This document shows positions 5,136-36,979 of a stretch of DNA of 64,000 bases, piece after piece (the first letter of the stretch is position 1; each line of letters starts with the position of its first letter). The notes under the pieces are model-generated. The model was not told the DNA's origin. It ran no database searches and saw only the letters and a list, made by a program, of their open reading frames with translations. This DNA comes from Isoetes taiwanensis. Its lineage: Eukaryota; Streptophyta; Lycopodiopsida; Isoetales; Isoetaceae. The translations under genes were made by a program, and so were the position numbers. Location: contig JAJEKV010000003.1 of the NCBI GenBank assembly GCA_021234155.1, forward strand, positions 32,719,166-32,783,165, written 5' to 3'.

Positions 5136-5149
5136 CACTAATATTATGC

Positions 5150-10980: not shown

Positions 10981-11239
10981 TATTGAACATGTTTCAGTGC
11001 GATCATTAGAGGTTTGGTGGAGTCTATTAACGCCCTTGTAAGCGAAGGCCAAATTTGGATTTTAGTTGGTACCCGAACCTGCAGGTATGGGCAAAAAGCC
11101 CCCACGAACCTCAACCGAACCTCAGCCCTGGAGAAACCGAACCTGGTAAACGTCATTATTACTTGTTGTTTTACTCATTACGCCTAAATCCCTCCTCCCC
11201 CCACCTTCCCACCGAACTGAAGCTACAAGGAGTAGCTTC

Positions 11240-11712
11240 GAGCGGGACGCCTCAAGAATGCCTCAATTGGGCGCCAAAGCTTTGGAGGCCATTTCGAATT
11301 TAGTTTTGATGTCAATCCTTGCCCAAATCCGAAGGAATTCTCTAGTTTTCCTTCGTATTTTGGGGAAGAATTGCATCAATTTGGTCACGGATTGTGGAGC
11401 TCTGAAAGCCATCACGCGATCAATTCGATCGGCGGCGAGGTAACTGTTCTATTAATTTTGGCCAATGACAATGAGTAATTCTTTTTTGAATACAGAGACT
11501 GAAAGGCCAATTCCGGGTGGCGGTGCCCAAGAACTGCTTGCCCTACAAAAATCAATATAATCGGAAGGAACAGGTCGATGAGAATGCTCTTCGAAGCTTC
11601 GGTGCAATGAATATTGATCTCGGGGGCTGGGGAAATCAGATCCCATCGATCCGATCACCAGAAGACATCCTGAATTTCATTCTCCATCGGGGCTTATTCA
11701 TTTTGCCTGTAA
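11240..11712 (+). CDS. Possible two-exon start of the first gene of the multi-gene cluster
   Basis: One open stretch (about 11262-11441, reading HFEFSFDVNPCPNPKEF and later HGLWSSESHH) ends at a good donor (GCGAG/GTAACT). After a short intron, an acceptor TTGAATACAG near 11494 precedes a second open stretch containing KNCLPYKNQYNRKEQVDENA and GAMNIDLGGWGNQIPSIRSP. That stretch stays open to about 11774 and has a possible donor (GTAAGG) near 11710. No family is recognised. It is probably coding because of the open frames and flanking splice signals. It may belong to the gene that continues at 12.1 kb. Confidence 0.35.
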
Positions 11713-12101
11713 GGGTAATCAAGGTCTGCTTGGCTATTGCAATAATATTTCAAGTAATTTCGATGTGCATTTGAGAACAATGTACAATCAATTGTGTGGA
11801 GTGCATTGCAATATGGTAGCACATTGTAATTACCTCCAACAGTGTAACTATTTCTTAACCAATGTGTCTAAGAATACGTAAGAACCGCAAGCTTCCAATC
11901 AAAGGTTGCTTATGGAGGTGGAGTCACTTAAACAAGGATTGAAGAGATGCTCGAGGACAATGACAAACCGGAGAGGAAGTTAAAAAGATGAAAAAATGAC
12001 ACCACCGGGCATGAGGGAGAGGAAAAAAGAACCTCAAGGCCCTAAATATACTTGCCCCTAGTGGTGGGGTTTCAAGAAGGATCCACGCTATTAAAAATCT
12101 G

Positions 12102-13969
12102 GTGGATCCTACTATGGCTGAAAAGAAGAAGAGAAAACCTTGTAATATGGCTAGTTTGTTGAAAAAGCTTGTAACTAAAGATGATGTTATAGATATGTTG
12201 AAGCTTCCCCGAGCTAACCATTTAAGAAAAGCCGTTCTTCGAACAAAAGCCACTTACCGAATTGGGAAAGAGTCAAAGTGCTGATAACATGCAAGAATTA
12301 TGTGACAATGTGGGTATCACGACAAGCTTACATTGCTCTCTTTAGATGTTTGCGGGATGGTATCAAGCAATGTGGTATTACTTAAGACCATACCGCCAAG
12401 ACTCGGTTATGTCGAGCAAGCGTAACAAAGAGGAATGCGTAGTACACCTAACATTTGGGAGAGATGTACCGATCACCACATCCGTGCACTTGGGATCACT
12501 AATCACGGGAAAAGTAAGAAGAAGGGTGGTCCGGAAATGATCTATTTGTTCTTAATGAGAAGAATAATTGTTGGATGGATCTCTAAAATGCTTCTTCCGT
12601 TAGTTCGCTTCTATGATATGAAAGTGGAAGAATGTGGAGGAAAACTCCAAATTGCTATAAAGTTGGATGAGATGGAACTAATGGTGAAAAGTATGAGAGG
12701 GTTTTCCGACATTAATGAACAGTATGCTGTCAAATTCTCGATAATGAGGAAGGGAAGTTCTCTGTTCAATCGAGATGACCATATTTGGTGGATAGGGATA
12801 TTTCAAGCACCGAAGAAAATCATGGTGTTCTTTGGGTCTTTCAGCCAGACACCTATTCCTACTATTATTGTGCTCATGGAGTCGGAGAGAAGCTTCGTGT
12901 TCCCCGGATACGGAAATTACGAGGTTGAATGGCATCCGGGTCGCCGATCTAAAGACCATCAAGTGCATGTATAACATGAAACATGGTTCGGTAAGACTAC
13001 CCACGCATGTCCTTACCGCTTGTATGCTAGGGTAGATGATAAGGGGAAGGGAATGAGTACTCTCGAATGTGACCGTGGATCTTTGAACCAACGCGTGAGA
13101 AGGAGGACAAAACTTTGATCCCCGTGACTTGCAATTCCCCGTGAAGAGAATACATATTTGCACTCTCCATGCCTTTCTAAGAATAGTGGATAAGATGGTG
13201 TACATGAGCATTCTTTTTGCTTGGAATAAGTCTCCACAATCAGCCGTAGAGAAAAGTGTATGAAAGATGTTGAGAACGCTTTTCGATCTTGGTCTTCATG
13301 GTGGTGACTATAAAATCCCCGCAAGATCCTAAGAAGGGAGGCAAGGTTCCTTGTAAACCATCTATGGGTGGGGTGAAAGCTAAGAGATTTCTGCCTTGTA
13401 CTAAATTACGAAGAATGGATCATTGCCAACCGGAAAGTGGGAGGGGTATAAGGACTTGCCGGAAGCGTAAGATGACCATACTTCACGTGGGAGGGCAAAA
13501 CTAAAGAAAATTAAAGCGTGGCGTAATCCGGAGCACCGGGTAACTTTGATGGCGAGAAGAAAATGGTGGGTGGAAAGTTAGATGAATTCAGAGTAGCAGT
13601 AACTGAATTCACGAAGTCGTTTATACAAGCATGGGGAGAATGCAATGTCACACATTACATTCATATACTTCACGCCCATGGCTTGTGGTTTGCCAAAGAG
13701 TACGGGAGCTTGGGAATATGGAATACGCAGGAATGGAGAAGTCACATAAGCAAGCCAAGAATGCTTTTTTCAGTTCACACAACATCGAGGTTCGTGGTGG
13801 TAACTCATTGCAACAGATGTGCCAATGGTTCTATAGAAGGATTATCTGCAAGCTAGAGAAAAAAGATAAAGCTAAACAAGACACGACGTTGGCTAGAATA
13901 TTGAGGAGAAAAGTTGAGCAGGAAAAAAAGAAACAGATATGGTGTAGCTCTAGTGCGCAGACAAGTTAA
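12102..13969 (+). pseudogene. Cluster gene 1: conserved-looking large protein, decayed
   Basis: Blocks of plausible protein are read in changing frames: a basic N-terminal part (MAEKKKRKPCNMASLLKKLV), WISKMLLPLVRFYDMKVEEC, KPSMGGVKAKRFLP, then THYIHILHAHGLWFAKEYGS with LGIWNTQ, and GMEKSHKQAKNAFFSSHNIE with MCQWFYRRIICKLEKKDKAK. From memory the HYIH.LHAHG ... YGSL..W.TQGMEKSH ... FYRR pattern occurs in uncharacterised mobile-element-associated proteins of basal plants and some animals; I cannot name the family. The copy is broken in several places. Class P1 palindromes follow its 3' end at 14.1-14.24 kb. Confidence 0.45.
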
Positions 13970-14104
13970 AGCGGTGGCGATCCACAAGGATCGCACGGGG
14001 TAGAAGATATACTGGGAATCAATTGTATGAATAAATTCATATTAATGTATAACTATTGACCATGATGTGCAACTATAATGTTTCAAATATGTTAGGTTGG
14101 CACA

Positions 14105-14236
14105 GGCACGGTGCGAACTTAGTTGGTATTCAATTGCTGAATGATAGTATTCGCGACCGCGGGCTACGGTGCTGTAATGAAGTTGGGAATTAGTTATAGA
14201 TTACCGCTATTCGCGACCGCGGGCCACGGCGGCGAA
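14105..14236. promoter_or_regulatory. Class P1 palindromes after cluster gene 1
   Basis: A half element (CACGGTGCGAA) near 14107 is followed by two near-palindromes at 14150-14174 and 14210-14236, each TTCGCGACCGCGGGC.ACGG.G. They are the divergent members of the family whose perfect form is at 18120-18143. They sit between two plus-strand genes. Confidence 0.6.
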
Positions 14237-14406
14237 AAGCATTTGGTTTTTCGGGCTATCTTTTGCCGTTTTCGCACGGTAGCATCGGTACTTTTATATA
14301 ATTATGCTTGTTATCGATGTTGTTCCGCTTTTGATATTTGTTCTAAGTCATTACATTGCATATTTATCAATCTTGTCCACTCATTTGTTGCATTACGCCG
14401 TAGACA

Positions 14407-15789
14407 ATGGCACGTAATAGCGGTAATGCCGGATCTAACAATCCCAACAACCAAAGAACGAAGAGAAGGCGCCGCCCGGGCGCATTACACATCATGGTGA
14501 AGACAAATGAGGCAGCGCCACTAACTATGTCAAGTGCTTCTAACAACCAGAACGAGAGCACCGCCTTCCGAGTTTAAAACATCCATCAAGGTGTCCGGAC
14601 GCCTGAGTTCGTAATGTTGCCAATGACGCAGAGGAGATTTTTAGAGACATGCTTTCCGAGCCAAGGCGTGTTTACCGTTCTCTTCTCGCCAATTTAGTCT
14701 GAGAAGGAACCTTCGCGTGCAGCCTATCCGTCATGGAGTTCCCGCGTACCGATGATTGCATCGCCGTTAACGCCGATGTGGTAGTTGCACCGCATAACGA
14801 CGTTGCATGTTCCTTCGATGGGAGCCGACACTTGCTTGCTTGAGGCACTCCATTCCTTCGCCGTGGTGGCCTGCATTGATGGCTTCTTTGACGCCAACTC
14901 CTAACTCATTCTCTCAGACCGGGCTAATGAGATAGATTACATAACCGACTTCCTCAGAGTGCCTAGGAAGTTGGATTGGTGGAGATAAACCGGGGGCCGA
15001 CTTGCTTGAAGCCGACAATGAGAATGCTAAGCCCCATGAGGATGACCATCGATGTGCATGTCCGGGATGTTCCCGTTGGTCGATATGCCCGCCCGTAACG
15101 TTCCTATTGCCGCTCGTGCGCTTTTGAACCCTCAATATTATGTACTCGGGTGTCCCTTTCCGTGTCCCCGCGGGACAGCTCAATTAGAAGAAAATATCGT
15201 TTCTACAAGAGGCAATCGCAGCATTCGTGGACGGGTTGTTCGAAACCGTTGTATTAGATGCAGTAGTGCTTCCCGTTGATGAGACTACCGCAATGCGATC
15301 ATCCAAGAGACGAAGAGGAAGACTAAGTTTAAGCACCGCAGTAAGAAACGTGTTTCTGCAAAGGCCCTCCTAAGCTGAATAAGAAGGGCCAGCCGCTTAA
15401 TCAAAAGTTAAGATGGATGCGCTGAAATCCCAAGACTTCCGTAACCACGGGAGTGGGTGCTTCCAAGCTCACAATGGCTAGAATATGTAAGGAGGTGGTT
15501 CAGAGAGATACATTAAGATGAAGAGGGATGGTGCAAGGTACCGGAGACATGGTTACAATTTTCCAATGCCGAACGGTGACTCGATTCATCGCAGATGCCC
15601 TTGATGCTCGCGACGAGGTCACCGAGAATCACATGGTCGTTCTTCAAGACCGTGGTGAAATGTCTTTGTGCATTCCAAGAGAGTGACAATAATGAGGCAG
15701 GATATTGCCTTGACAAATTACTTCCGAGGTATGTAAAGTGTTTTATATTAATGAAACGATCTTTGTTGTTTATTTTGTTTGCTTGCTAG
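14407..15789 (+). pseudogene. Cluster gene 2: unknown protein with basic N-terminus, decayed
   Basis: The frame opens at ATG 14407 with a basic, Asn-rich N-terminus (MARNSGNAGSNNPNNQRTKR continuing RRRPG, NLS-like). Downstream, in changing frames, come FVMLPMTQRRFLETCFPSQG, a Cys/His-rich stretch (EDDHRCACPGCSRWSICP) and a final part around 15500-15720. No domain is recognised. The copy is broken in several places. Three P1 palindromes follow directly at 15828-15969, which supports placing the 3' end near 15.79 kb. Confidence 0.4.
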
Positions 15790-15827
15790 GTATTTTGATT
15801 GTATCTATTCTCTATGTATACTTATAA

Positions 15828-15969
15828 TGCACCGTTGCCACGGTGCGAAATGGGTATAAATTACTTTTGGGAGGGTATTTTTCGCACCGCGGGCCACGGT
15901 GCTTGCAAATTCCGTAAGTTACTGTGTGAGGGCCCGGCAATTTCGCACCGTGGCCACTGTGCGAAATTG
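15828..15969. promoter_or_regulatory. Three class P1 palindromes between convergent genes
   Basis: Near-perfect inverted repeats lie at 15828-15850, 15881-15903 and 15938-15969. The last has arms CAATTTCGCAC and GTGCGAAATTG about the core CGTGGCCACT. They occupy the gap between the 3' end of plus-strand gene 2 and the 3' end of minus-strand gene 3. Each can fold as a hairpin in RNA from either strand. Confidence 0.75.
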
Positions 15970-16164
15970 AATCATTCCATAGAAAGTGAACCACAAGATC
16001 AAAGTGAGCATATTAACATGTTTGAGGATATATTAACATGTTAGAGAACATTTAGAGAACGGCAAGTAACGGAATTATGTCCAAGTAACCTTCCCCTAGG
16101 TTTCTAACCCCTTCCCCTTCCCTCGCGAGGTCTAACCCATGCATCCGGGTTAGGAGTCAAGAGC

Positions 16165-16704
16165 TCACGCTCCTCCCAAACCTGATTCTTCCCACCATAT
16201 GGGGTACCTAGTCATTAGAAAAAGTAATTCCACAGGATGATACTCACAGAAGAAGAGCGAACCTAACTCCACAAAACCGTTGTACTCGTGGTAGTACACC
16301 CTAATAAGGCCATACATCTGTCCCCGGGTAATTTCATGAATGAATTCTGTTATGTATGCATCCAGAGAGTGTGCTAAATAGCCAAAGATTTAAGAAGAGG
16401 CCTCAATTGCTGTAGCATCTCGGCCCAGATAAGGAGGGGGTTCAAGAAGTCCCCTCATTGCAAGTCTCCTATAACATTCGGGATGGATTAATTTCCATCG
16501 GTGGCTCATGACCACAATCAAATCGCCTGCAATGAAGTTGATCAACTCCATTGTAAGCTCCTTGGTAGGATCGTGGCGCAACCTCCACTCCAAGAAATGG
16601 TCCCATAGCTCATCCCATTCCAGCCGCACAAAATGCCCGGGCATGCTTGCAGGCCTTGTGGAGTGGCTGTGGAGGATTCGGGTCCAATCATTTGCAAAGA
16701 GCAA
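16165..16704 (-). pseudogene. Cluster gene 3: unknown Trp-rich protein
   Basis: A minus-strand frame of about 104 residues includes HFVRLEWDELWDHFLEWRLR and VVMSHRWKLIHPECYRRLAM. In the same frame it continues after one interruption for about 73 more residues (IFGYLAHSLDAYITEFIHEI, YPIWWEESGLGGA). Aromatic, Arg/His-rich composition and the long same-frame continuation argue for real coding ancestry. No domain is recognised. The 3' end faces the P1 palindromes at 15.83-15.97 kb. Confidence 0.45.
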
Positions 16705-17015
16705 CTAAGATCAAGTAGCAAAGAACAAGGAGCACTAAGATCAAGGAGCAAGGAGCAAGAAGATCAAAAGAGAAGGAAGATCATGGAGCAAGAAAGCAAG
16801 GAACAAGATCAAGTAGCAAGATCAAGAGCAAGGAACACGGAGCAGACAAGAAATTAGTGGATCAGACAAGAAATTAGTGGAGCAGACAGGAAATTAGTGG
16901 AGCAGACAGAGAGGCAAGGAGCAGACAAGAGGCGGACAAGAGGGGGAAAGAGGCAAAGAAGCGGCATAAGAAGCAGACAAGAGGCAAGGAGCAAACAAGA
17001 AGCAAAGCCAATGAT
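16700..17015 (+). repeat. Purine-rich imperfect tandem tract
   Basis: About 300 bp made almost only of A and G in loose units such as GCAAGGAGCAAGAAGATCA and GGAGCAGACAAGA. It includes three near-repeats of ACAAGAAATTAGTGGA.CAG. It lies upstream of gene 3 on its 5' side. Confidence 0.65.
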
Positions 17016-17059
17016 AGACAGTGAAGGCATAGATGCCTATTTAAAGAGAAATCAGATAT

Positions 17060-17180
17060 ATATGACATTATACGAGTACCATACAAGTATCTATATAATC
17101 CAATAATTTCTATGTATATACGATCAATAATTTTGGTGCGTACATACCATCAATAATTTTGGTGGGTATAAATATACATC
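17060..17180 (+). promoter_or_regulatory. CAATAAT/TATA promoter-like module, plus orientation
   Basis: Three boxes CCAATAATTT, TCAATAATTTTGGTGCG and TCAATAATTTTGGTGGG run into TATAAATATA, followed by a possible short plus-strand frame. The same order (CAATAATTTTGGTTGG then TATAAATATA) recurs in the same orientation at 20050-20125. Spacing of box and TATA is conserved, which makes it look like a core promoter with upstream CAATAAT elements. Confidence 0.5.
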
Positions 17181-17370
17181 AAATTGCCGAGTGCAGCAAC
17201 ATTGGCCATGTGGCCTCCTCCTCGGTCCCGAACGTGATTCCATCACCGCAAGATGAATCACTTAAAAACTTCAAGCAGTTGTCGCGAGCGACAAATACCA
17301 ATGGAAGATCGGATGACCACCGCCTCTCAATCCTCGCTATTATCCCGATCCCTTCGATGTTATCATCCAT
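17179..17370 (-). CDS. Short minus-strand frame, function unknown
   Basis: 63 codons (MDDNIEGIGIIARIERRWSS, RDNCLKFLSDSSCGDG). Its 3' side adjoins the promoter-like module. An overlapping plus-strand frame exists, so coding status is uncertain and no family is recognised. Confidence 0.2.
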   Translation of the reverse strand: MDDNIEGIGIIARIERRWSSDLPLVFVARDNCLKFLSDSSCGDGITFGTEEEATWPMLLHSAI

Positions 17371-17542
17371 CTAATATGGAATAGAGAGCATCAAATGTAC
17401 ATGATAGAAAAGATCACCGGGTGCTCGGTGACAATGACTCGTAAGAGTCCCCTAAATCAATACTTGTCATCCGGATCATATTGTCAATACTTATTTGAAG
17501 AGTTCATGATCGTGTATTTTGTACATTATGCTCGTATATATA

Positions 17543-17600
17543 ACCAATAATGATGCTACAGTGCACGTCAATAATTTTGTTTGATATAAGTACAGCTCCA
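17543..17600 (+). promoter_or_regulatory. Promoter module of cluster gene 4
   Basis: CCAATAATG, CTACAGTGC, TCAATAATT and TATAAGTA (17585-17592) stand in this order 46 bp before the ATG at 17631. The same series with the same spacing precedes gene 7 on the other strand. Conservation outside the coding part points to a shared regulator. Confidence 0.65.
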
Positions 17601-17630
17601 TTCATTCAATGGAGAAGGCATCCATTTGCT

Positions 17631-17876
17631 ATGTCTCGGCCTGGTTATTCTTGTTATTCCATTACTTGCACTATGACATATAATGATCTTTATAGATGTT
17701 CTCAGAGGGGTATCCCCCTTGATTCCTGGCTGGAAGGGGTAGCAGAGGGTCGAAATCATTCTTCCAACGGGGTTTATCGTGTTTTTATCCACCTTCATCG
17801 GGTTCCAGAGCGTCACGTCTATGAGATTAATCGCATCACTCAACTTGCTGCTCATGATGATCCCGATTGCGAATGA
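17631..17876 (+). CDS. Cluster gene 4: small paralogue A (81 aa)
   Basis: Open frame MSRPGYSCYSIT..., 81 residues. The start at 17631 is chosen because the paralogue (gene 7, 19724-19954, other strand) begins with the same PFA-MSR context and both promoters align up to it. Shared residues run through the whole length: TC.MT..DL..C, then GI.LD.WL.G.A.GR, then Y.V.IH...VP. No known domain is recognised; the pattern suggests a compact globular alpha/beta protein. The frame is intact. P1 palindromes follow about 210 bp after the stop. Confidence 0.65.
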   Translation: MSRPGYSCYSITCTMTYNDLYRCSQRGIPLDSWLEGVAEGRNHSSNGVYRVFIHLHRVPERHVYEINRITQLAAHDDPDCE

Positions 17877-18084
17877 TCTTCTGCATTTATGTATGCTATG
17901 CCTTTTGTATGAGTTCTAAATTCTGTTACTAGAATATTTCAGACATTCTCTAGTTATAGGTATGTATCCATAAGAGATAAGAACATATGATTCATCTATT
18001 TACCGTACATTTTCAATTTCGAAAGCTCTTGGCCATTTTCCTTACATGTAGATTCTAAATTCAGATAAGCATTCTCTTCGCAGT

Positions 18085-18199
18085 GTGTGTAGTCACGGTG
18101 CGAAATAATGTGGAATATTTTCGCACCGTGGCCACGGTGCGAATATTTGTTAATTGTAAGCACGGACAACACGATCTTCGCACCGTGGCCACGGTGCAA
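18085..18199. promoter_or_regulatory. Class P1 palindromes, perfect copy, between convergent genes
   Basis: A perfect 24-bp palindrome at 18120-18143 has arms TTCGCACC and GGTGCGAA about GTGGCCAC. A near-perfect copy lies at 18177-18197 and a half copy at 18092-18104 (GTCACGGTGCGAA). They lie between the stop of plus-strand gene 4 and the stop of minus-strand gene 5 (18301). This is the best-preserved member of the class. Confidence 0.8.
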
Positions 18200-18300
18200 G
18201 TAAAATAGAAGCGTAAAACAAATTAAAATGAAACCGAAGTTTATGTTCGATATAACAAGAATAGAGATTTCAAACAAGTCTTTGCATTAATTGACAATGG

Positions 18301-18489
18301 TTACAACTTCATTTTCTTAGAAACATGTAAGTCATCGGACACTTCGACTTCTTCCAATTCGGATTCCTGCAGACCAGCATCCAACAGGTACATAAGGCGA
18401 GGAATCTGGGGCTCCCTCTCTTCCCAAGTCAGTCGAATTGTAGCCTTATCCACGCCGGACAAGGCCAATGCAGATCTACTGGCAGCCAT
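18301..18489 (-). CDS. Cluster gene 5: small unknown protein (62 aa)
   Basis: Frame starting MAASRSALALSGVDKATIRL (a Met three codons earlier is possible). It is followed by an acidic part (SELEEVEVSDD) and a basic end (KKMKL). No family is recognised. It is divergent from gene 6, with a 277-bp gap that holds no palindrome, and convergent with gene 4 across the P1 palindromes. Confidence 0.45.
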   Translation of the reverse strand: MAASRSALALSGVDKATIRLTWEEREPQIPRLMYLLDAGLQESELEEVEVSDDLHVSKKMKL

Positions 18490-18766
18490 AGAATACATAC
18501 AAGCACTGTTTCATTATTTATGGACTTTCCCCAAGTCCATACGTCTCCGAAATTGAGTCAAATTTCTAAAATATGATGGTTTTTTAAATAGAAGGACGGA
18601 ATTTTTCGGGAAACGTGCTGGTAGGTGATATGGCAGAAGCTTTTTCTATTAAGCCAAGGACAAGCCCGCCCAACTCGCGGTCAAGCAAAAGCGCGTCCTG
18701 TGTGTGAGGTGTTGCTAGTGAGGCTTTGTTTTGCAAATCTGTGCAGCATAGATTCATAACGAAGCA

Positions 18767-19204
18767 GTGAGAATGGTTGAAACGAGGCGCCGGTATGGAT
18801 TCACAATGACTGAAATGCAGTCCCATATCAGTGAGCAGATCTTAGCCCACGCGAATCAATTGCAGGTTGAGGTGCAGAATGAGATAAATCAGAATGGAAG
18901 AAACGAAATCAGTGGGCAGGTCATGAAGCTCCTCCGTGGGGATGGGTTGTTAAAGGACAACAATTATCAACTCACTAGGGTGGAGTTGGAAGCTTCCCTG
19001 ATATCATTGAAACGACTTGTCTACAGGGGAGAGGCCCTGAAGAGGCTACTCAAATTAGAGGATGTTTGGCTACACAACTCATTCAGACCATTATTTAAGA
19101 AGCTTTATAAAAAGGAGAAAAGGCAGCGTGAAGATTTGGTAACCAAGCTCATTGTCAACACTCCTCACTCGATCCTTGAATTGGATGAATGGCTGGACAG
19201 ATAG
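18767..19204 (+). CDS. Cluster gene 6: intact unknown alpha-helical protein (145 aa)
   Basis: Open frame of 145 residues; MVETRRR two codons in could be the real start. The sequence is strongly helical and charged: TEMQSHISEQILAHANQLQV, LTRVELEASLISLKRLVYRG, FKKLYKKEKRQREDLVTKLI. It has no signal peptide, membrane segment or recognised domain. It may bind DNA or a partner protein, but that is a guess. Two class P2 palindromes lie 260-350 bp after its stop, in the gap to convergent gene 7. One of the few undamaged frames of the cluster. Confidence 0.6.
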   Translation: MRMVETRRRYGFTMTEMQSHISEQILAHANQLQVEVQNEINQNGRNEISGQVMKLLRGDGLLKDNNYQLTRVELEASLISLKRLVYRGEALKRLLKLEDVWLHNSFRPLFKKLYKKEKRQREDLVTKLIVNTPHSILELDEWLDR

Positions 19205-19462
19205 CGAAATTACATTGATGAGTTCGATCAGGGTGATCTTATTCAAGTCGAACTAGCCATTGACTGAAAACTGGCACCCTGATATTTTCTACTTTGTATT
19301 CTGTTTTTGTCGAACTACCTATGTCGAGGCATGTTGTTTTATTTGGTTTTATAATATGTGTATGACATCTATGTAATGCATTTCTTAATGAATGGAACCG
19401 GTTCTATCTATTTTTATGATGGAGCATAGGCCACAATCCCTAGACACCAATTTGTTTTGTGG

Positions 19463-19551
19463 AAATTGGGCGCCCGCCCAATTTGCCCTCGTAGTCGTCT
19501 GAACAAAGTTTAATACTAGCCTCCAAAGGAAATAGGGCGGCCGCCCAATTT
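19463..19551. promoter_or_regulatory. Two class P2 palindromes between convergent genes
   Basis: Palindromes at 19463-19484 and 19530-19551 have arms AAATTGGGCG and CGCCCAATTT (the second starts AAATAGGGCGG). They lie between the ends of genes 6 (plus) and 7 (minus), as P1 copies do elsewhere. Confidence 0.75.
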
Positions 19552-19723
19552 CGTTAGACTTGCGAGAAAATACAAATATGATTTGTCACAAATATAATTA
19601 ATCCAACTTGAAAACTATGCACCAAGTGTGGATGCTACCTATAACAGATCATTTCAGATATAAATTCTTATGAACTTATGAAATACATCTCATAGATTGT
19701 AATTATTGGTGATTTTGTCAATC

Positions 19724-19954
19724 TCATAAAGCGTCGCCCGGAACCCAAACAATATGGATAGTAACATGGTACTCGCCGGGGGAGTCTTTCGGTCGACCAG
19801 TAGCTATACCATGCAGCCAGGTATCAAGGGTGATCCCTTTGATAATGCATGCATGAAGGTCGTCGAAAGTCATGAGGCAAGTGAGGGTGTCCAAATGCTC
19901 TGGAGGTGGAGGCAATTGGGACCTCTGAAGAACTCTAGCAGGGCGGCGAGACAT
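19724..19954 (-). CDS. Cluster gene 7: small paralogue B (76 aa)
   Basis: Open frame MSRRPARVLQRSQLPPPPEH, then TC.MT..DL..C, GI.LD.WL.G.A.GR and Y.V.IH...VP, ending GDAL. The ATG at 19954 is preferred over an upstream Met because the upstream part aligns with the promoter, not the protein, of paralogue gene 4. An insert of about ten residues (QLPPPPEHLD) distinguishes it from gene 4. Function unknown. The two genes face opposite ways about 1.85 kb apart. Confidence 0.65.
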   Translation of the reverse strand: MSRRPARVLQRSQLPPPPEHLDTLTCLMTFDDLHACIIKGITLDTWLHGIATGRPKDSPGEYHVTIHIVWVPGDAL

Positions 19955-19979
19955 TGCAAAGGGCTGTGCTATGCAATCG

Positions 19980-20060
19980 AATGCGGCAATACTTATAGCC
20001 AAGTAATTATTGATGAAGCACTGTAGTAACATTATTGGGCGTACATACGACTGGTAAGTA
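19980..20060 (-). promoter_or_regulatory. Promoter module of cluster gene 7
   Basis: Read on the minus strand: CCAATAATG, CTACAGTGC, TCAATAATT, then TATAAGTA (19990-19997), 43 bp before the ATG at 19954. It is the counterpart of 17543-17600, with a nearly identical order and spacing of boxes. Confidence 0.65.
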
Positions 20061-20125
20061 TATCCAATAATTATTGTGTATAATACCAACAATAATTTTG
20101 GTTGGTATAAATATATACTTCATGT
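20050..20125 (+). promoter_or_regulatory. CAATAAT/TATA module, plus orientation, back to back with gene 7 promoter
   Basis: CCAATAATTATTG, ACAATAATTTTGGTTGG and TATAAATATATA align with 17100-17175 in the same orientation. No convincing plus-strand gene follows before the palindrome at 20157, so it may drive a lost or non-coding transcript. Confidence 0.4.
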
Positions 20126-20156
20126 TCAACTGCTCGCACTGATAGCCTTAAGGTTC

Positions 20157-20395
20157 AAATTGGGCGCCCGCCCAATTTCCATGAGGGAACTCTTCTAGTG
20201 CAGGGAAATTTTCGCCATGTATTTATTTTCTTGGTCAATGTACATAAGTTTTTTTCAGTCAATCTCATTATAAAAACCTATATAGTGAGTAACAGTGGTG
20301 CGAAATTGGGCGCCCGCCCAATTTGCACCCCCGTGCTCACTCTAAACACATATACACAGAGTGTCAGAGATGCGAAATTGGGCGCCCGCCCAATT
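20157..20395. promoter_or_regulatory. Three class P2 palindromes after cluster gene 8
   Basis: Copies lie at 20157-20178, 20303-20324 and 20374-20395. The middle one extends to arms GGTGCGAAATTGGGCG and CGCCCAATTTGCACC (20297-20329), so its outer arm is the same GGTGCGAA that ends class P1. They lie just past the 3' end of minus-strand gene 8 (stop at 20431). Confidence 0.75.
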
Positions 20396-20430
20396 TGCAC
20401 CCCTGTGCTAGCAAAACATACTCCTTGTGC

Positions 20431-24300: not shown

Positions 24301-24714
24301 AACCTCTAACTCGTTGGCCATCTCGGTGCTCATGACATGTCGATTGCTATACCTTGATTCTCAGGTCCTCCGAGTCGGGCTCAGCAAAGAAAGTATGTGC
24401 ACGATCCTTGAGGTGATTAGGTGCTAGACCCGTGGTGGATATTGCCTACCTCTATGCACCAAGTAAATTTATCGCTACGGCAGTCATTAGTTCCCGGGGC
24501 GACTTCAATACCATTGAACCGAATTCCCGCCGCTTCCTTTTTCAGCAAAGCAAATGCCCGTAAGCAACGGAGGGCGGATCCCGGTGCACGGCGGTTTGTT
24601 TAGTTCTCGCCATGGGTGCCTGATAACGCCAATCATGAATCCCATTAGTGGTGTGTCAAACAATTAGAAGAGCAATTTGCCGAAATGCAGGAGATTACAA
24701 AACTAACCAAAGAT

Positions 24715-25480: not shown

Positions 25481-26640
25481 GTAATTAGAATGATCCAACG
25501 GGCCAAAGGGTTATTGGGTGCAGAGGAGACAACTTCTGAGGTACAAAGTGACAACCAAGCAGAGAGAGGTGCGCGCCATATGATTGGGTGGACACCTTAA
25601 GGCCGCTGGCTTTATCTCCCTCGCACTAATGTAAAGAACTGAAGTTGAAGAAAAGAGCAGTACCTTTTCCTCCCTTCACGGGTCGACTTTCCATGAAAGC
25701 AGTGGCACCTGGAAGCTAGCAGTCAGCGCTTGGAAGAAATCACTTTGAACACGACAGGCGCCTGGTAGCTTGGAGTAAGCGCTTGGAAGAAATCAGTGTG
25801 AACACGAAGGCATAAATATGCTCAGGTCGGCTCAAGAAATCGATATGAACAGGGCTCAAAGAATGCCGAATCTTAAAAAGGAATGGGCGGTTAGGTTTAA
25901 CTGATGAGTGACAAGTGGCGGCCATGCAAAAGAGGACCCTAAAAAATAGACGTTTTTAAGTAAATATGGACCAAAGGACAGAACAATAAAAATAGACAGC
26001 TTTGCAATAAATGTGCCCGAAAAAGTAAAAGCGCTTTTTTTAAATTGACATACACGTCACGTATTGAAATTTAAATTTTAAATTTTGAATTCTCCACGGC
26101 CTCAGCCTAATTTCAAATTTATAGATGCGGTCCTTTGGTACATTTTCAATTTAAAATTAGGGCCCCACCAATATTTGATTTACGTCCCGCCTGCATTTGA
26201 ATTTGAATTTGAATATATAAGAAGAACTATGGTGGGAGAATTGATTTTTGAAATACTCGAGGAAGGCGGGTGGCTAAAGCCATTCGTTTCTCTCACATTC
26301 TTGGGCAAAGAACTTCTTCAAACGGGATGGTCGCGATTCACCAAAGGTAGGTTTCTTTTGGTATATCGTTCATTCTTTGCACGGATTGGTATAGAACATT
26401 ATTGATGATAAGATTCGGCGGATAAAAAGATAATTTTGAGAGATGTATGTTCGGGTCCCTCTATATTCTATCTCGGGTAGCATGGAAGCGAGGGGCCAAA
26501 TGGGTGCCAAATGGGCGGATATACCTCGAATATGTATCATTCTGGTGCACGCTTAGAAAGAGTGGCTATGTTTCATTTATGTACAGCACCTCAAGATTAC
26601 TAGACGAGGGAGCCGTGTTTTAGCGGCTAAGAAGAATCAA
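25481..26640. other. Central region between divergent gene blocks
   Basis: About 1.1 kb between the two palindrome arrays, with leftward genes on one side and rightward genes on the other. It holds local repeats (GGCGCCTGG.AGCTTGGA.TAAGCG and AGCGCTTGGAAGAAATCA.TNTGAACACGA around 25710-25810), an AT-rich stretch at 25.93-26.2 kb and a 106-codon plus-strand frame at 26085 without family features. It could hold divergent promoters or a replication or recombination site; nothing proves this. Confidence 0.35.
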
Positions 26641-26649
26641 GAATGTGGG

Positions 26650-27290
26650 AGGAAATTGGTAGGATGTTCAATTTCAACTCCTTAAAGTTACTAGAGTAGG
26701 AGGGCCACCAACTTCAGCAGCTAAGAAACATCGAATAGGAGGAAATTGGGGCTGCCCAATTTCAACTCCTCAAACTTACTATATCGTGGAGCAAATTAAG
26801 GCCACCAATTTCAGCAAAGAGCCTAAACATCAAGAACAGGGTGGAAATAGGGTGCCCAATTTCAACTCCTCAAAGTTACTATATAGCGAAGCAAATTGGG
26901 CGCCAATTACCGCCAAAACAAGCAGTAATTGTGGTGGAAATTGGGCGGCTGCCCAATTTCAACTCCTCGAAGTTACTAGACCAGGGAGCAAATTGGGCGC
27001 TCGCCCAATTTGAGCAGCAACAGGGAGGAAATAGGGCGGGTGCCCAATTTCACCTTTCCAATTTACGAATAACAAAATAAGTTATTTTGACCAAATTAAG
27101 AACATCAGAACATCGGAGGAAATTGGGCGGCCGCCCAATTTCAACTCCTCGGTTACTAGATCGGGGGAGCAAATTGGGCGCCCAATTTGAGTAAAGAATG
27201 AGGGAGGAAATAGGGCGGGTGCCCAATTTCACCTTTCCAATTTACGTAACAACAGGGAGAAAATTGGGCGCCCGCCCAATTTCACCATCT
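26650..27290. repeat. Tandem array of class P2 palindromes, right central array
   Basis: About nine palindromes alternate in two spacer contexts: GGAAATTGGGCG..CAATTTCAACTCCTC plus AAAGTTACTA, and GGAGCAAATTGGGCGC..CCAATTTGAG. A sub-block AAATAGGGCGGGTGCCCAAT with TTCACCTTTCCAATTTACG occurs twice (about 27030-27066 and 27207-27244). The array ends about 50 bp before the DUF8039-like frame. Confidence 0.8.
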
Positions 27291-27335
27291 AAGGAGCATG
27301 TGCTGTAACTTTGCTCTTGAACTGATTTATTTTTT

Positions 27336-27602
27336 TTGGTGCAGGAGGTGTACCTATTCAAAGATGGTCGGGCAGTTGGCAAAGGGACCATGGGAGCTAG
27401 GGAGAGATGCCACTTTAAAGACATCCCAGATGGACTTGTGAGTGTGGGTGTTCTAGCTGTGTTTGAGGGGCATCATGTTCTCTCTTGGCCTACTCCAGAA
27501 GCAAGTACCTTAGGTGAGGCATTGGGTTCCTTCATTCTCTGGAGGGAAAGTGATGTTCATGACTCCGATGTGGACGCGCCGTCGGCATCAAAAAGACAAT
27601 GA
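27336..27602 (+). CDS. Cluster gene 10a: DUF8039-like segment (88 aa)
   Basis: The frame reads EVYLFKDGRAVGKGTMGARE, IPDGLVSVGVLAVFEGHHVL, PTPEASTLGEALGSFILWRE. The order Gly-rich start, IP.....V.V..V..GH.LP.P, TL.EALG.F..W is that of the plant DUF8039 domain, which is found in proteins encoded by or derived from plant transposons. It follows the right palindrome array and precedes the DUF7869-like frame on the same strand. It may be the start of the same gene or a separate one. No catalytic residues are known for this domain. Confidence 0.5.
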   Translation: MVQEVYLFKDGRAVGKGTMGARERCHFKDIPDGLVSVGVLAVFEGHHVLSWPTPEASTLGEALGSFILWRESDVHDSDVDAPSASKRQ

Positions 27603-27918
27603 GGGGAAGCAACAGAGACACCATGTCGCTAACTAGGTACACACCATCGAGACCCTGACGAAATTTATCACTCTTGTGCTGCCATCCCTGCGGCGTGAAG
27701 GGATTTATATCCTTCACCGTTGGTCCGACGATGCGATTATGTGACCAGTTCTTGGGTATGAAGACCGTAGGGGTGTCACATTATTGAAGGCTTTCCCCTC
27801 CGACAGAGGTGAACTTAGGTGTCCCAAGCATGTTTGACAATACCTAAAGCGGGCATGCTTTTGAGGTGGAATAATGATCTAGTTAGGGTTTGTGGGGTGA
27901 AGGTGTCGGAAATTTTAA

Positions 27919-30419
27919 GTGCGGCAAAGGAACAAAGATGATCTGACGTCGAGCGAGGCAGCTCGGAGGAGAAGCATCCTTGCAGACGAGAAGCGTAAAT
28001 ACACCTTCCATTCTCGTCGGCCAAAGAAAGCATCAAAGCCTCCAAAGATAGATCGGCTAACAACCAATGAAGCCATCTTGAGGTATAGGAAGACCATGTG
28101 TTGCAAACAGAGATGTTGTGAGAAATTCAGTAGGGATCAAGCTATAAACATGAAAAGGATTTCTTTGCCATGAAATCGAAAGAATGGGACCACTTTTGTG
28201 TATGACATGTTAGGCAACAATATGAAGGGTAGAAGGGTTCATCGACTAGTCTTGCAAGGCATCAGTGTCTGTGAGAGGGCTTGGTACCTTGGTCTTGGGA
28301 TTTCAAAGTCGGGGTATCTGAAGTGGAAGGCAGAATTCCGCTCCGGTGCTCGAAAGGCCGAGCATGGCAATTCAGGCACTATGAAAGCACGTGCGGCCAC
28401 CTTGGCCTCAGAGGCTGTTTTTTCCATGTTTGTGAAGGAAAATTGTGAGTCTTTACCTCACCGTAGCAGGAGGAATGATGATGGGATTCGAGAAAACGTG
28501 AGGAAGTTGCCTGCTATGTTTACGAAGACATGCATTCTCGAAGAGGTCAACGCTGAAGTGATGGCTCTCACAGGCAAGAAGGTATCTCCGCTGTGATTTC
28601 ATGGGGCGACGGAGACGAGCTTCAAGGACGCCAAGATTGCTAAGAAGAATGCATTCTCCAAGTGTGACACTTGCGAGGTTATCCGCATCGGTCTGCTGAA
28701 GACCAAGGATGAGGCTAAGAGGAGAATATTGCATGATCGAGAAGGGCACATAGACTAGAGCAAGCAATCATGTCGCACCCAAGATCTTGGTCATGGAGAC
28801 TGTTATCCCACGGGCATCCTCGAGACTTTGTATGTATCATTCACGACAAAATGGATCAGGCAAAGACTATGATTCCAAAGTTGTTCGATTCGCGGAAGTC
28901 CCTTTGGAGACTAGATAAGCTAAAGACTTCATTGACAGTGCACTTACCCACGGCCATGGGAGAGGGTGCTATGGAAATTTTGCTTTGGATCTGTGGTCAG
29001 ACGACTCCAACTTCCATGTAGGTTCTTTGAATAGTATTTTGAAAAGGTTGGAGATGCCTAATGAGTTTGCAGGAGGCCATCTTGCACTGTCTGATCCATC
29101 AGTCCCAGATTGGGCCAGGGCCTTACGTGACACCACTGCGCTAGCGTCCAAGTTGTCGCTGTCTGGGAAGAGCATCCCCGTTGCCATCCCTCAACCTGAG
29201 GGACCCTCATTGAAGCGTCTCCCTCGCAAATTGCTGTTGCAACTAGACAATGCATCCGGACAAAACAAAAATAGGTATGTATTCTCGTATCTTTCATACC
29301 TTGTATATCTGGGTGTTTTCGAGGAGATTGAGTTAGGGTTTATGATGCCTGGCCATACACATGACGATATAGATGCTATGTTTGGAAATTTTTCATCTAC
29401 CTTGAAGAAAGCCGAAGTGCTAACCATGCCCGAGTTGTTGTATGAATTTCATACGTGCAATCTCAACACGCCAGTGCCATATGTTGTTCATAAGGTTCCA
29501 GATTGGAAAGGTTTCATAGAAGGGTATATCCCTGATGGGGAAGATAGATTGACAGGTCACACTGAGCCTCTGACCTTTTTGTTTGCTATGAATGGTGACT
29601 GGCCTGTCATGTACCATAAGGCTCGTCCTACGTTCGTGGATTGGCTACCTGCTGGTGGAATAAGAATGTGGAAAGAAGGAGAGGATGGAAAACCCCTAAT
29701 GCCATCTGGAAATCCGCAGATGCTAGCACCTAAGAGCTCGGTGAAAGACATTGATCAGCTCCGAAACAGTATCCATAAGCATATCCTCCATTGGGTCGCA
29801 TGCTCATTTTAACAAGAAGGGCACACCGAGAGACGACCAAATATACAAAGACAATTTACGGCGACAATTGAATATTGGATGGGACTCTTGGAGCATCCGA
29901 GTAACATCACCAACGTGGAAGGTCCTTACGAGGACTTTGGGCGGCGACTAGGCAAGATAGACTTGACGCATTCTGATGTGGTGGGCGTGGTGGAGCCAAT
30001 TGCAACCATCACTCCCGCTTATGTTGGTCCATTGAAGGATAAGCCTGCGTGCAGAATTCAATCCTTTCAAGGATTTGAAGAAGGGCATGTTTGTATTGGC
30101 GCGCCCTGATGATGTCTTGTGCCCAACATGGCTAGGGTATGCTACAGAAGAACCCCAAATGGATGATAAGAAAGACAACTTCGAGACTATCCAGGTCACT
30201 TGGTGGGAGCCTGTCCCTGTTAGGAACCAGGTGTTCCCAGCCAACTATGTCAATTGTTGGAAGAAGAGATGGAGGCCGACCACTGCTAGTGACCGCATTG
30301 AGATAGAGAGTATCGACTACGCTTGGAGTCCTTCGAATAAGAAGAAGCTACCAAACACTGTCAAGATTCCCACACTTGTTGCAGAAGCATATGCGGCACT
30401 TGCCGGGGATGTATGTTAG
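27919..30419 (+). pseudogene. Cluster gene 10b: DUF7869-like protein, possible DDE-type transposase
   Basis: Blocks in order: a Cys-rich knuckle (TMCCKQRCCEKFS), GISVCERAWYLGLGISKSGY with LKWKAEFRSG, FSKCDTCEVIRIGLLKTKDE, and a final long open stretch from about 28985. That stretch carries LLLQLDNASGQNKNRYVFSY, LGVFEEIELGFMMPGHTHDD continuing IDAMFGNFS, and YIPDGEDRLTGHTEPLTFLF. The LQLDN....NKNRY..... LG.F.E....F...GHTH.DID pattern is the signature of DUF7869, an RNase H-like domain found in plants, algae and animals in repeat-rich families. The two Asp/His-rich motifs could be catalytic. The N-terminal half is interrupted several times; the C-terminal 275 codons are open. A final part (to 30419) includes FVLARPDDVLCPTWLGYATE. 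The stop lies 2 bp from that of convergent gene 11. Confidence 0.6.
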
Positions 30420-30421
30420 TG

Positions 30422-32390
30422 TTATCGAAGCGTCTCTTTTATAAAAAGTCCACAATTCAAGGTATTGTCCATATTTAATGAAACTGTGCTTATACTAAAG
30501 CCACCAAAAATATGCGTGGCGATATCTCTCCTAACAGCCACTACTCGATCAGAATTGGCAGATAATGGGATATGATTACCAATCAACGAGAGGGCCTTGA
30601 GTTTCAAGACCTCTTCTGGTCCATATGGGCTGTACTTAGAATGGAACACAACGATCTCTCCCTTATAAAGGTAGCCCATATAGTGGGCGATACTTGCATC
30701 TCTGCCAAGGGTAACTCTGTCATATGTTGCGGCAAAAATCGCCCACAAAAATCTCCTGCGCAACAAATAATCGTTCTTAGGCACTTAACAAAATAAGCAA
30801 ACTTATGGTAGCTTACCTCCACTTCATCAGATGCAATAACCTCTTTGGTAGAAATGTTGATGGACGACCTTGAAGAGCTTGATTCGCTCTTTGATACTTG
30901 TTTTGCACTATCCTTTTTTAGCCCGATGTACTTCGCCTCGAACTTTACTTACGAGACTTCCTTCAAGCCCATTTACGCCATCTCGAACTCTATCAAAAGC
31001 ATTTCGGGGAGCTATTGAAGTTCCATCATAAGTTAAGAGATGCGAGATCCCTAGGCACTTCCAGGCTCGAAGTCAATGAAGTCGTCTAGACCAACAACGA
31101 AAGCATAGATTTGTCCAAGGACTTCAACTTCCCTCAAACCCGGTAATGGAAGATATATCGTGGAGAAAGAAGATAGTCCTTCCCTCCTATGTTAACCGGC
31201 AAGGCTTCCGTGACACCCCATCTATCAAGATTCTCTTCATGCTCGCGTCACGTCTTCATCCTCGTCCTCGCCGAGCTTTTCCACCAGTTCCTTCTCTTTC
31301 TGCATCAAATACCTCCTCTCTGGTGGTGAGGTTTCAGCAATAGCCTTCACTGTGGTTCTTCCCTATCTGTTGGTGGAACCGTATATATCATGTAAGTAGC
31401 AAACATGATGTCAACCGGATATAAATTATCCTTCCCATCCTTCTCACATAAGTCTTTGGCGGTCTCTTGAGCGACCTTGAACCTTATCTTGGTCACCTTT
31501 GGGAAAAAGCTTCAGAAAGGACTTTAGACTCAATACAATCTTCCCAGTCGAGGGAGAAGGACGCGCTTCACTTTCTGCCACGGCCATGAAACCATGAATG
31601 TACTGACCATACACGTCACTGTGTTTGTTAGCCTCAGAGATTATATCTACCGTTAGGCAGAAGTTATTGTAGACTACAGTGGCGTCTACCGGGTTTTCAG
31701 GCTGTTGAGCGAACTCATCTGGATGTGACAGCCGATACTCTGCTTCCTTCCTAACGATCTGGTCATACCATGCCTGGAACTGTTCCCATTAGAGGTAATT
31801 TGAGATCTCATTTTGTCCCATTAAGGGATGCTTAAAAAGCCACATCAGCTTTTTAAACTGTCCAATAAGAGAAGAGCTCCAATGTATTTTATTCCAGTAT
31901 TATGTGGCAGCAGTAATTAATGCAGTTCTAACTAACTTTTGCAGTGTCATTTTTCTACTATAACTTTTGATCAAAAACTCCGATTCGAACACTATTTGTG
32001 GCAATGGATTCGTCTCCTCAAGATCTTTCTAATGACAACCCATTGCTATATCTTTTGGGATGTAAATATATAAGAAAAGAGCAAAAAACCATATTTTTTA
32101 AGGTTAACACATATGGCTTGTATTGAAATACATCATAACCATATATCACTTGAAAGATTTTTTCATTCTGCATCTAATGCAACAAACGCCGCAGCATTTT
32201 CATGAGTAGATCAAAAGTTATAGGGAAAAAGCGGCGAGAATGAAGTTGTTAATTTTGCATTAATTGCGGTTTGATGTAGAGTACTCATTCTATTGGAGGA
32301 TTCTTATGGGGACAAAAGGAGATCTCAAATTACCTCTAATGCAAGCTTTCTCTGACCTGCCGTTTGACATTGCGGAATTGTAGCGCCTTC
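30422..32390 (-). pseudogene. Cluster gene 11: unknown protein, split by MITE B
   Basis: The minus-strand 3' block (30422-30784) reads FLWAIFAATYDRVTLGRDAS, MGYLYKGEIVVFHSKYSPYG and RRDIATHIFGGFSISTVSLN. Upstream, past a good donor/acceptor pair near 30.82 and 30.75 kb, there is a Ser/Lys-rich stretch, then a block at 31437-31787 (EQFQAWYDQIVRKEAEYRLS, HPDEFAQQPENPVDATVVYN). MITE B (31788-32340) interrupts this block near its start, and the frame resumes beyond it (MSNGRSEKA). No domain is recognised. The copy is broken in several places. Its upstream limit near 32.39 kb is followed by class P1 palindromes that more likely belong to gene 12. Confidence 0.4.
31788..32340. mobile_element. MITE B, 553 bp, second copy of MITE A
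   Basis: Same terminal inverted repeats (ATTAGAGGTAATTTGAGATC...), same length and orientation as 5150-5701, with only about ten to fifteen differences. It interrupts a minus-strand frame of cluster gene 11, so it is younger than the cluster. Confidence 0.85.
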
Positions 32391-32548
32391 TTTAGTGCAA
32401 TAAAAACCCGACGCCTAAAAAAGTAAGTGCCTGGAGCCGACGTGTGAAACTAAAATGTCTTAAGTGTCCTCACGAGAAAATATGTGCCGCACCGTATACG
32501 GTCTTGAGAAAACAAATATAAACCACAAAAGACAACAATAAGGTATTC

Positions 32549-32700
32549 AGCACCGTGGCCCGCGGTGCGACATTTTCTTGAAAAGAAGGCCAAATTTTTG
32601 TTAAGCGCAAAACATACCACACCGCGTAGCCCACGGTAGCGAAACTACACAACACGCGACTACACGAACTCCACATATTTTCGACGGTGTACGGTGCTAT
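32549..32700. promoter_or_regulatory. Class P1 palindromes after cluster gene 12
   Basis: CAGCACCGTGGCCCGCGGTG (32549-32569) is near-palindromic. Degenerate copies follow at about 32617-32643 (ACCGCGTAGCCCACGGTAGC) and 32684-32697. They lie 75-225 bp past the 3' end of minus-strand gene 12. The same class occurs at 14.1-18.2 kb, so both ends of the cluster are marked alike. Confidence 0.65.
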
Positions 32701-32775
32701 CTTTGCAAAAGGTATAAGTTATTGGCAAACAAACTTTGGGATTTGAACCCAAGAACACCATTGTTATTTATTTGT

Positions 32776-34110
32776 TTAACTGTTTTCACTTAAAGAAAGT
32801 ACAACGGGGAGGCATCTGAGCTTTGTTGTATACAATTCTTCCCCACGTTTTCCTACCTTGACACCATCTACCAAAAAATGGAAGACGTTTAAGTCACATT
32901 CTGATTCCAAAATAATTCTTACATCAAATAAAGACCATGCTTCTTCGACTTTTAAAGTTTTAAACAATTGACCACTTTTGAAGATAGCAATGTCAATGAC
33001 ATGAGAATGGGTACCATCGGCATCGTCTTGTTCCCTTTGAACCCCGTCCATCTGCTCCCTTCTTTTACTTCCCTCCATCTTACGTATTTGAAGGTAATGT
33101 AAACTGTTTGCTTTCGAATACAATACCACGATTCGAACGCTTTCTTTCTTTATCCACTTTGTACCTTCTCAACTCCTTCATGCGAGGCCGGGATGACCAT
33201 TCATCACATAAAATGTCATCCAGAAACAACTGACAATCACTTACAGTAAACATTTTTGAAGTCTTCTTGACATTCTCGACATTCTTAAACAAGGTAATAA
33301 ACATATCGATGGGTACATTTACTTTCACGTGTCCACAGACTCCACCTTTCTCCTTCAAAGCACTGAAAATTTCCTGTGACAATTTCAGCTTGGCAAGAAA
33401 ACAGAACCTGGAATCCATTGGGCGGGGAACTAAGTTTGTTATAATGGGGCAATGGTAAGTCCACAATTTTGCCTTTCCGAGGATAATACTCATATTTTAA
33501 GAACCAAATCCCCCTTTCGCAACTGCACACTTACGTTTGACCTTCAAAAAGCAAGGATCCAATATCATAATAGAAAGCACGGAAGATGCTTGTGATAGAA
33601 CTTCGATGGTTCGTGTCCAAAGACATCGGAAATCTGAGCCACGAGATACGTAAACCCAATTAGTTGATTTCTTCAAAATATAATGAATGACGGATTAGCA
33701 CAGATATAATGAAACTCACAATTCGCACGAAGCTCAGGGAAATTACGTCGAGATCTTATCTTTTCTTTTCTCATGTCTGTCGGTGTGTATAGGTGTCTGA
33801 CCTTGATATATACTTCCCCTCTCACCTCGAACCCGACAACAATAGCCTTCCAATGGCTTGAAATAACATTTCTCCTGCCTTTGATCACCCGATGAGGACC
33901 TCTGAGTGGCGGTCGGATTGTCACGAAGCTCCCAAGAAATATATTGAAGCGTAGAAATCGTTTCTCATTTGTGGCCAGGTAATCGCCATCTGAAATGAAC
34001 CGGCAAATTAATTAGATCAAACAGTCTGAATCAGATGAGCTCGCAGAACTAGAAGGATTGAAAGCATTAGCAAACCTGGATGGAGAGACGTGAAAAGAAG
34101 AGCCGTTGAG
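32776..34110 (-). pseudogene. Cluster gene 12: BAH-like domain protein
   Basis: The minus-strand block at 33673-33990 reads LGSFVTIRPPLRGPHRVIKG, HWKAIVVGFEVRGEVYIKVR, HLYTPTDM and FPELRANCEFHYI. This follows the BAH fold: an initial V.I.P strand, a K...GFE..G.V...VR strand followed by the L/Y-P-TDM loop, and an ELR/ELF segment before a polar strand. Next comes FLKYEYYPRKGKIVDLPLPH, which matches the strand after BAH in plant BAH-PHD readers such as EBS/SHL. No PHD finger is seen. Downstream blocks are PRPMDSRFCFLAKLKLSQEI and a final frame (to 32776) FKSGQLFKTLKVEEAWSLFD with a ubiquitin-like or doublecortin-like feel. BAH is a moderate call. The copy is broken in a few places and introns are likely. 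Confidence 0.45.
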
Positions 34111-34111
34111 G

Positions 34112-34123
34112 AGGGGGGGGGGG
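34112..34123 (+). repeat. G12 homopolymer in the promoter of cluster gene 12
   Basis: A run of 12 G lies just downstream of the TATA-like box, within the likely 5' leader of minus-strand gene 12. Confidence 0.8.
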
Positions 34124-34131
34124 TACTTATA
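34124..34131 (-). promoter_or_regulatory. TATAAGTA box of cluster gene 12
   Basis: Minus-strand TATAAGTA is identical to the TATA boxes of genes 4 (17585-17592) and 7 (19990-19997). The CAATAAT boxes are not evident here. Confidence 0.5.
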
Positions 34132-34486
34132 GACACCCCAACATTTGGGCGGTGATTCAGGGCGGGAATAATTTGTAATTATTACTTCCCCCACCGAACC
34201 TCGGGCAGGTAGGTAAGGATAATGCCGAACCTGTATCTTGACGACACCTGGCATGGGAAGGGAGGCATGGATGAAGAAAAGCTGTACCCCCGAATTCTCA
34301 TTGGCCGCGCGATTTCCATGCTGGCATCGAGCTTGGGACAATAAGTGAACCCAAAAAAACTCTAATGTGCTGGGATCATTCCTTCAGGAGGTCATAGATA
34401 TAAGGGATCAGCTATTTCCTTAGACACTCACTTAATATGTACATGTTTCATGATGTATATTTGTACGATTTGTCAGTATTCTTATT

Positions 34487-35169: not shown

Positions 35170-36979
<1,810 letters not shown>

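Follow-up and report, generated by a model that had tools for sequence, protein, structure and literature searches.

The stretch of DNA analyzed here, referred to as the window, comprises 64,000 nucleotides of Isoetes taiwanensis (contig JAJEKV010000003.1, positions 32,719,166 to 32,783,165). The open-frame list of the window showed small, broken open frames densely packed on both strands at approximately 11–34 kb, as a first-pass annotation of the sequence had described, with a guanine-plus-cytosine fraction of 0.38–0.50 compared to mostly 0.29–0.44 in the flanks, where single bins reached at most 0.47. The first-pass annotation assigned all of these genes to one mobile element between 11240 and 34270. 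Comparison with other copies in the host (1.658-Gb assembly, 1110 contigs) divided the 23-kb cluster into an outer element A, a nested element B, and a 555-bp miniature inverted-repeat transposable element (MITE).

A search with positions 11240–14000 of A gave at least 46 host matches, of which at least 29 besides the window span nearly the whole query at 90–94% identity (40 of 724 candidates scored, hence a lower bound). A search with positions 18560–20560 of B gave at least 63 matches, at least 39 of them, besides the window, being 1.4 kb or longer at 85–98% identity (40 of 703 candidates scored). Six A copies were read; one of them (c935, L021–L023, where L numbers denote stretches of host copies) had no right part within 30 kb and was excluded from the end counts. 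The five copies with both ends located cover 11002–11004 to 18500 and then 30492 to 34367–34368, the intervening 12 kb being absent, and all five also lack the MITE. The intact junction without B was seen in four, reading GAATACATACTAAAGCC in L010, L016, and L025 and GAATACATATTAAAGCC in L019; in copy c908 minus, it falls at the border of two stretches, and this copy is not among the four. In addition to the window, six left and five right ends of A were read, all of them exact to the base. The net length of A without B and the MITE is approximately 10.8 kb. The inverted ends of B read AAGCAC[T/A]GTTTCATTA, and two further B copies read to both ends are flanked by TTAA and TTCT; with ATAC in the window, the target duplication is 4 bp in three of three cases. 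The two families thus differ in their termini (CATTAGAG.. versus AAGCAC..) and in their target duplications (0 versus 4 bp). The locus therefore holds two different repeated DNA transposons, B inside A, and by its position the insertion of B is the younger event.

A single undescribed element would fit the dense genes and the contiguous span, but this reading has practically no chance of being correct: it is ruled out by the A copies that lack B, and B copies elsewhere have their own ends and duplications. The other host copies did support the broader proposal of the first-pass annotation, namely a mobile, multi-copy entity with bounded ends and an unusual gene set, now decayed. Second copies with the same gene order and bounded ends were found for A and for B, but not for the 23-kb whole (none of five A copies contains B), and copy alignments together with reading of the ends moved the borders to 11004 and 34367. 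Two genes whose stops had appeared to face each other only 2 bp apart (30419/30422) are a by-product of the insertion, because the minus-strand frame 30422–30784 begins in A and continues past the junction of the two elements (30491) into B. A search for long terminal inverted repeats between 6–19 kb and 27.3–42 kb gave only seven weak matches of 20–69 columns. The mean Kimura two-parameter divergence was 0.044 among eight A copies, with the window copy at 0.046–0.053 from the others, and 0.049 (0.010–0.067) over the left 1.5 kb of B, with window B at 0.010 from copy c1072.

Insertion of A was examined at its flanks. Among the window and five A copies, the only bases shared between the flank of CATTAGAG and that of CTCTAATG were a T (window), a TCTA microsatellite (c919-), and AT (copy c1054-). 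The flanks of c1054-, joined, gave 29 host matches, of which 13 spanned the full 300 bases, and the three empty sites read (L039–L041) have ..GGAATATGGCC.. with no base gained or lost across the junction, so that the AT is not a duplication either. Copy c1054- lies in a repeat resembling a long interspersed nuclear element, its frames being judged by eye. The MITE likewise has an empty site, and a second MITE copy at 5149–5702 (97% identical) also lacks a visible duplication. Insertion without target duplication is thus shown for the MITE and, at a single empty site, for A, and the common CATTAGAG start suggests that the MITE was probably moved by A or a relative. It could be argued that the ends of A were joined into chance breaks by host end joining, which can act on ends made by RAG, so that the absent duplication would not be a property of the transposase; the data consist of a single A empty site and a single MITE empty site. 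We regard this explanation as quite improbable, as the A ends are base-exact in the copies read and no target base was lost at either empty site.

The protein encoded by A gene 1 was compared with known transposases by predicted structure. Only RAG1 and Transib chains exceeded noise in both fold searches of the A gene 1 models, at 10–14% sequence identity to RAG1, HzTransib, and ProtoRAG (BbRAGL). The catalytic D motifs KLDE and WH..DLKT were found in A gene 1 homologues, and in the predicted model of homologue P0018, D367 sits within a strand and D464 at the end of one, in blocks with a predicted local distance difference test score (pLDDT) of 77–79. Past the second D, a C(2)C motif is present in 13 of 15 homologues and in L018, with a spacing of 19–21 residues where this was read off; P0012 lacks the motif, and P0024 was left unscored by the regular expression. 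An H(3-4)H motif (HILYIH, HILYNH, HILHAH), followed 19–20 residues on by E, occurs in P0018, P0025, and L018, and the remaining 13 of 15 homologues stop before it or lack the E motif. The candidate catalytic E, E759, falls where the pLDDT of the model drops below 50. The C(2)C, H(4)H, and E elements occur in the order of the CMCT clade. Searches of A gene 1 against curated Pfam gave only rows below cut-off, mostly coiled coil (E ≥ 0.0033), a sequence search of the PDB gave no plausible match, and comparison of the A and B transposase profiles detected no relation. From its fold matches and motif order, A gene 1 is predicted to encode a DDE transposase of the RAG1/Transib/CACTA fold. A match to a generic RNase H core with helices, with A gene 1 coming from another DDE superfamily, is a doubtful explanation, given that RAG1 and Transib chains alone rose above noise in both searches and that the three later motifs follow the clade order.

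The Pfam scans read frames with X at stops, used E ≤ 0.1 for one subset of two frames, and omitted the plus frames at about 22.0–27.3 kb, one plus frame at 19.0–22.0 kb, and the minus frames at 27–30 kb. Over the scanned frames of the region, a single family was reported, DUF7869 (PF25273; 120.9 bits against a cut-off of 26; E = 6.4e-35), which confirms the DUF7869 protein of the first-pass annotation; no other family came from these profile searches. Homologues of up to approximately 940 amino acids, one of them (P0005) from the moss Ceratodon purpureus, align across three frames of B, and 27346–30419 is for this reason regarded as one broken gene. The suggested separate BAH-like gene at 30036–30419 is instead the C-terminus of this protein, aligning weakly to residues 816–925 of P0001 (25% identity; E = 0.001). 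DUF8039 was unreported by Pfam in the scanned frames, although the N-terminal domain of the B protein is similar to A gene 2. As a guess, exon 1 may lie at about 26230–26346. A methyltransferase-like protein had also been proposed and was rejected, with no methyltransferase row in Pfam or the PDB at E ≤ 10.

Because B is bounded and multi-copy, the DUF7869 protein that it encodes is likely its transposase. It might instead be a passenger, with another B gene or a helper element moving B; the predicted model of the protein is too poor to interpret (pLDDT 37), and the other long B frames have no known Pfam family. We consider this unlikely in view of the relatives of about 940 amino acids with conserved D residues in a moss and other sources, and of one DUF7869 cluster with 168 member sequences. 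No paper on DUF7869 or DUF8039 was found in the PubMed Central (PMC) literature. Codon-position counts of substitutions showed a third-position excess in the 519-amino-acid (35, 39, 74) and 173-amino-acid (27, 21, 55) frames of B, each compared with two other sequences (by elimination window B and copy c928), as protein-level selection would give, and no such excess in the 290-amino-acid (73, 42, 63), 172-, and 154-amino-acid frames. Copy c928 (L037:1–10000, L038:1–4000) is 97.7% identical to window B over the left 1.6 kb and 66–75% further in, and the B subfamilies are thus mosaic. A segment of approximately 750 bp at L036:2756–3504, with two near-identical minus-strand frames of 93 amino acids, is missing from window B.

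Comparison of the two elements showed that they carry related accessory genes at the sequence level. A gene 2 resembles the N-terminal domain of the B DUF7869 protein (E = 3e-11), A gene 4 resembles B gene 2 (E = 4.5e-16), and a stretch of L035, from B, is 79% identical to A 17125–17459. It is inferred that accessory genes were exchanged between A and B. The palindromes said to unite all the genes are indeed numerous and near-identical, but they are of two kinds that follow A and B separately and so do not unite the genes. B-type palindromes gave 29 strand-matches with at most three mismatches, against none in 100 shuffles, all inside the region except a pair at 62777; this lone palindrome (62777–62798) is possibly a trace of another B insertion. 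A-type palindromes gave three matches against none expected. The ATTGGGCG..CGCCCAAT palindrome was absent from 12 A-copy stretches and occurred 11 times in the B stretch L035, while the GCACCGTGGCCACGGTGC kind was present in nine of 12 A stretches and in none of 10 B stretches examined. Either kind may act as binding sites or form RNA hairpins. The remnant of an integrated large DNA virus could likewise have compactly arranged genes in both orientations together with palindromes. This origin is very improbable: the terminal repeats and the copy pattern are transposon-like, viral contigs gave no confirmed relative of either presumed transposase, and no capsid or viral polymerase gene was seen among the frames scanned.

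Table 1. Features of elements A and B and of the MITE (positions in the window)
Feature	Position	Strand	Basis
Element A, whole span with B and MITE	11004..34367	.	five other copies end there; ends read
A left terminal inverted repeat CATTAGAG	11004..11011	+	ends read
A gene 1, broken, RAG1/Transib-fold transposase (predicted)	11517..14022	+	656- and 210-aa frames in copy L018
A-type palindromes, left group (..GCACCGTGGCCACGGTGC..)	14150..18200	.	pattern counts
A gene 2, broken, domain like N-terminus of B DUF7869 protein	14407..15735 (end approximate)	+	L018, L007, L015 frames; similarity to 27342-27542
A gene 3	16108..16694	-	200-aa frame in L016
A gene 4 (small protein, relative of that of B gene 2)	17544..17876	+	similarity to L035 154-aa frame
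A gene 5, 3' part, truncated by B	18304..18496	-	L016:7204-7680 aligns to both 30736-30479 and 18498-18304
B target-site duplication ATAC, left	18497..18500	.	junction and ends read
Element B (11,991 bp), within A gene 5	18501..30491	.	missing from four A copies at exact junction; own copies elsewhere
B left terminal inverted repeat AAGCACTGTTTCATTATTTATGGAC	18501..18525	+	ends read
B gene 1	18752..19240	+	172-aa frame in L035
B-type palindromes AAATTGGGCG..CGCCCAATTT and tandem arrays	19463..27282	.	pattern counts
B gene 2 (small protein, relative of that of A gene 4)	19724..20119	-	similarity to A gene 4
B minus frames, exon borders provisional	20431..22560	-	290- and 173-aa frames in L035; third-position bias in the latter
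B 519-aa frame of L035, broken in window	23013..24600 (approximate)	-	third-position bias
B DUF7869 gene, broken into three frames, DUF8039-like start, "BAH-like" end	27346..30419	+	Pfam; homologues P0001-P0010
B right terminal inverted repeat	30467..30491	-	ends read
B target-site duplication ATAC, right	30492..30495	.	junction and ends read
A gene 5, 5' part, also interrupted by MITE	30496..32459	-	373-aa frame L016:6138-7256; L025:4842-5444 reaches 32459
MITE, 555 bp, CATTAGAG ends, no target duplication	31787..32341	.	empty site AACTGTTCCCAAGCTTT in L010, L013
A-type palindromes, right group	32549..32680	.	32549-32569 by search; remainder by eye
A gene 6, broken	32779..34020 (approximate)	-	L016, L019, L013, L010 frames
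A right terminal inverted repeat CTCTAATG	34360..34367	-	ends read

The genes of A are listed in Table 1; gene 3 matched no Pfam family at E ≤ 10. None of nine A frames had a significant third-position excess, and four deviated otherwise (p < 0.05): gene 1 (100, 142, 122), a gene 2 frame (117, 172, 168), gene 4 (24, 46, 22), and one frame of gene 6 (42, 31, 21). These counts are consistent with copies decaying after insertion. Beside A lies what is probably a broken host gene, its fragments at 35100–36960 resembling by eye a cysteine protease of the papain type that ends in a granulin-like part. Elsewhere in the window, direct repeats at 47832–48486 and 50133–50789 (97.7% identical) surround a Retrotrans_gag frame at 48503–49282 (Pfam E = 1.3e-13), and 47832–50789 is, judging by these features, a young long terminal repeat retrotransposon without most of pol. 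A single-frame WD40 protein of 469 amino acids at 1360–2766 is probably a host gene, and Copia-like protease and integrase fragments were seen by eye at 6700–7500.

Overall, it is probable that the locus consists of two nested DNA transposons with different transposases, A with a RAG1/Transib/CACTA fold and no target duplication and B with a DUF7869 protein, B having inserted later and the two carrying related accessory genes. The A gene 1 transposase would recognize the CATTAGAG ends and join them to directly opposed target positions, leaving zero bases duplicated; the fold, motif order, and empty site together suggest such RAG-like catalysis with opposed joining. B later inserted into A gene 5 and duplicated ATAC, as the junctions show, and the two elements would have exchanged accessory genes. 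We give about even chances to the stronger proposal that A is a separate plant lineage of the RAG1/Transib fold, without duplication and with directly opposed strand transfer, which traded accessory genes with an unrelated, undescribed DUF7869 family making 4-bp duplications. High-copy transposase families without a Pfam family could explain gene clusters that look like genes of unknown function.

Transposition by Transib and RAG makes 5-bp target duplications, compared to none for A, and the CATTAGAG ends are A's own. Among the closest described systems is the CMCT clade, which has C(2)C and H(3-4)H motifs and 2–5 bp target duplications and includes Lanisha among its members (PMC12730594). 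The clade shares with A the D-D-C(2)C-H(4)H-E order, an RNase H core, predicted in A to be like that of RAG1/Transib, and 5'-CA..TG-3' termini (A: CATTAGAG..CTCTAATG), but A leaves no duplication, has no sequence match to a curated family, and carries five further genes beside the transposase. Because of the absent duplication, A is described here as a relative beside the clade and not as a member.

The authors of Lanisha reportedly work on the moss Ceratodon, which also has a DUF7869 relative (P0005). It is possible, though we do not favor it, that A belongs to a lineage already on record, in particular Lanisha (Maumus, McDaniel and Carey, Repbase Reports 2020), for which both the C(2)C and the H(3-4)H motif are listed; the 2–5 bp duplications given for its clade speak against this (PMC12730594). 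No paper joining Lanisha and Ceratodon was found in the PMC literature, and searches there for transposons without duplication and for RAG/Transib in plants returned no paper matching all terms. If Lanisha were the family of A, the novelty would be confined to its insertion without duplication and its set of genes. RAG1 relatives are studied for the origin of V(D)J recombination, and those described in the papers cited here duplicate 2–5 bp of target. If the proposed lineage is real, a plant transposase with the same catalytic layout and zero duplication would make the strand-transfer geometry of the fold testable by comparison.

Other known transposons resemble A or B in part. Spy, of the PHIS superfamily, has terminal inverted repeats and no target duplication, as A does, but it targets AAATTT and has a Harbinger-type transposase (PMC4482050). 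The A site is GGAAT/ATGG, no AAATTT target was present where six copies of A and two of the MITE had inserted, and the predicted fold of A gene 1 matches RAG1/Transib. Sola2 is similar to B, by description only, in its 4-bp duplication and long transposase (888 amino acids in one case), but its duplications are AT-rich (AWWT and similar; PMC3627910), whereas TTCT and ATAC are not purely AT. Finally, related accessory genes occur across several superfamilies of fungal TET/JBP-carrying transposons (PMC12730594), and the gene sharing between A and B parallels this case in a plant host.

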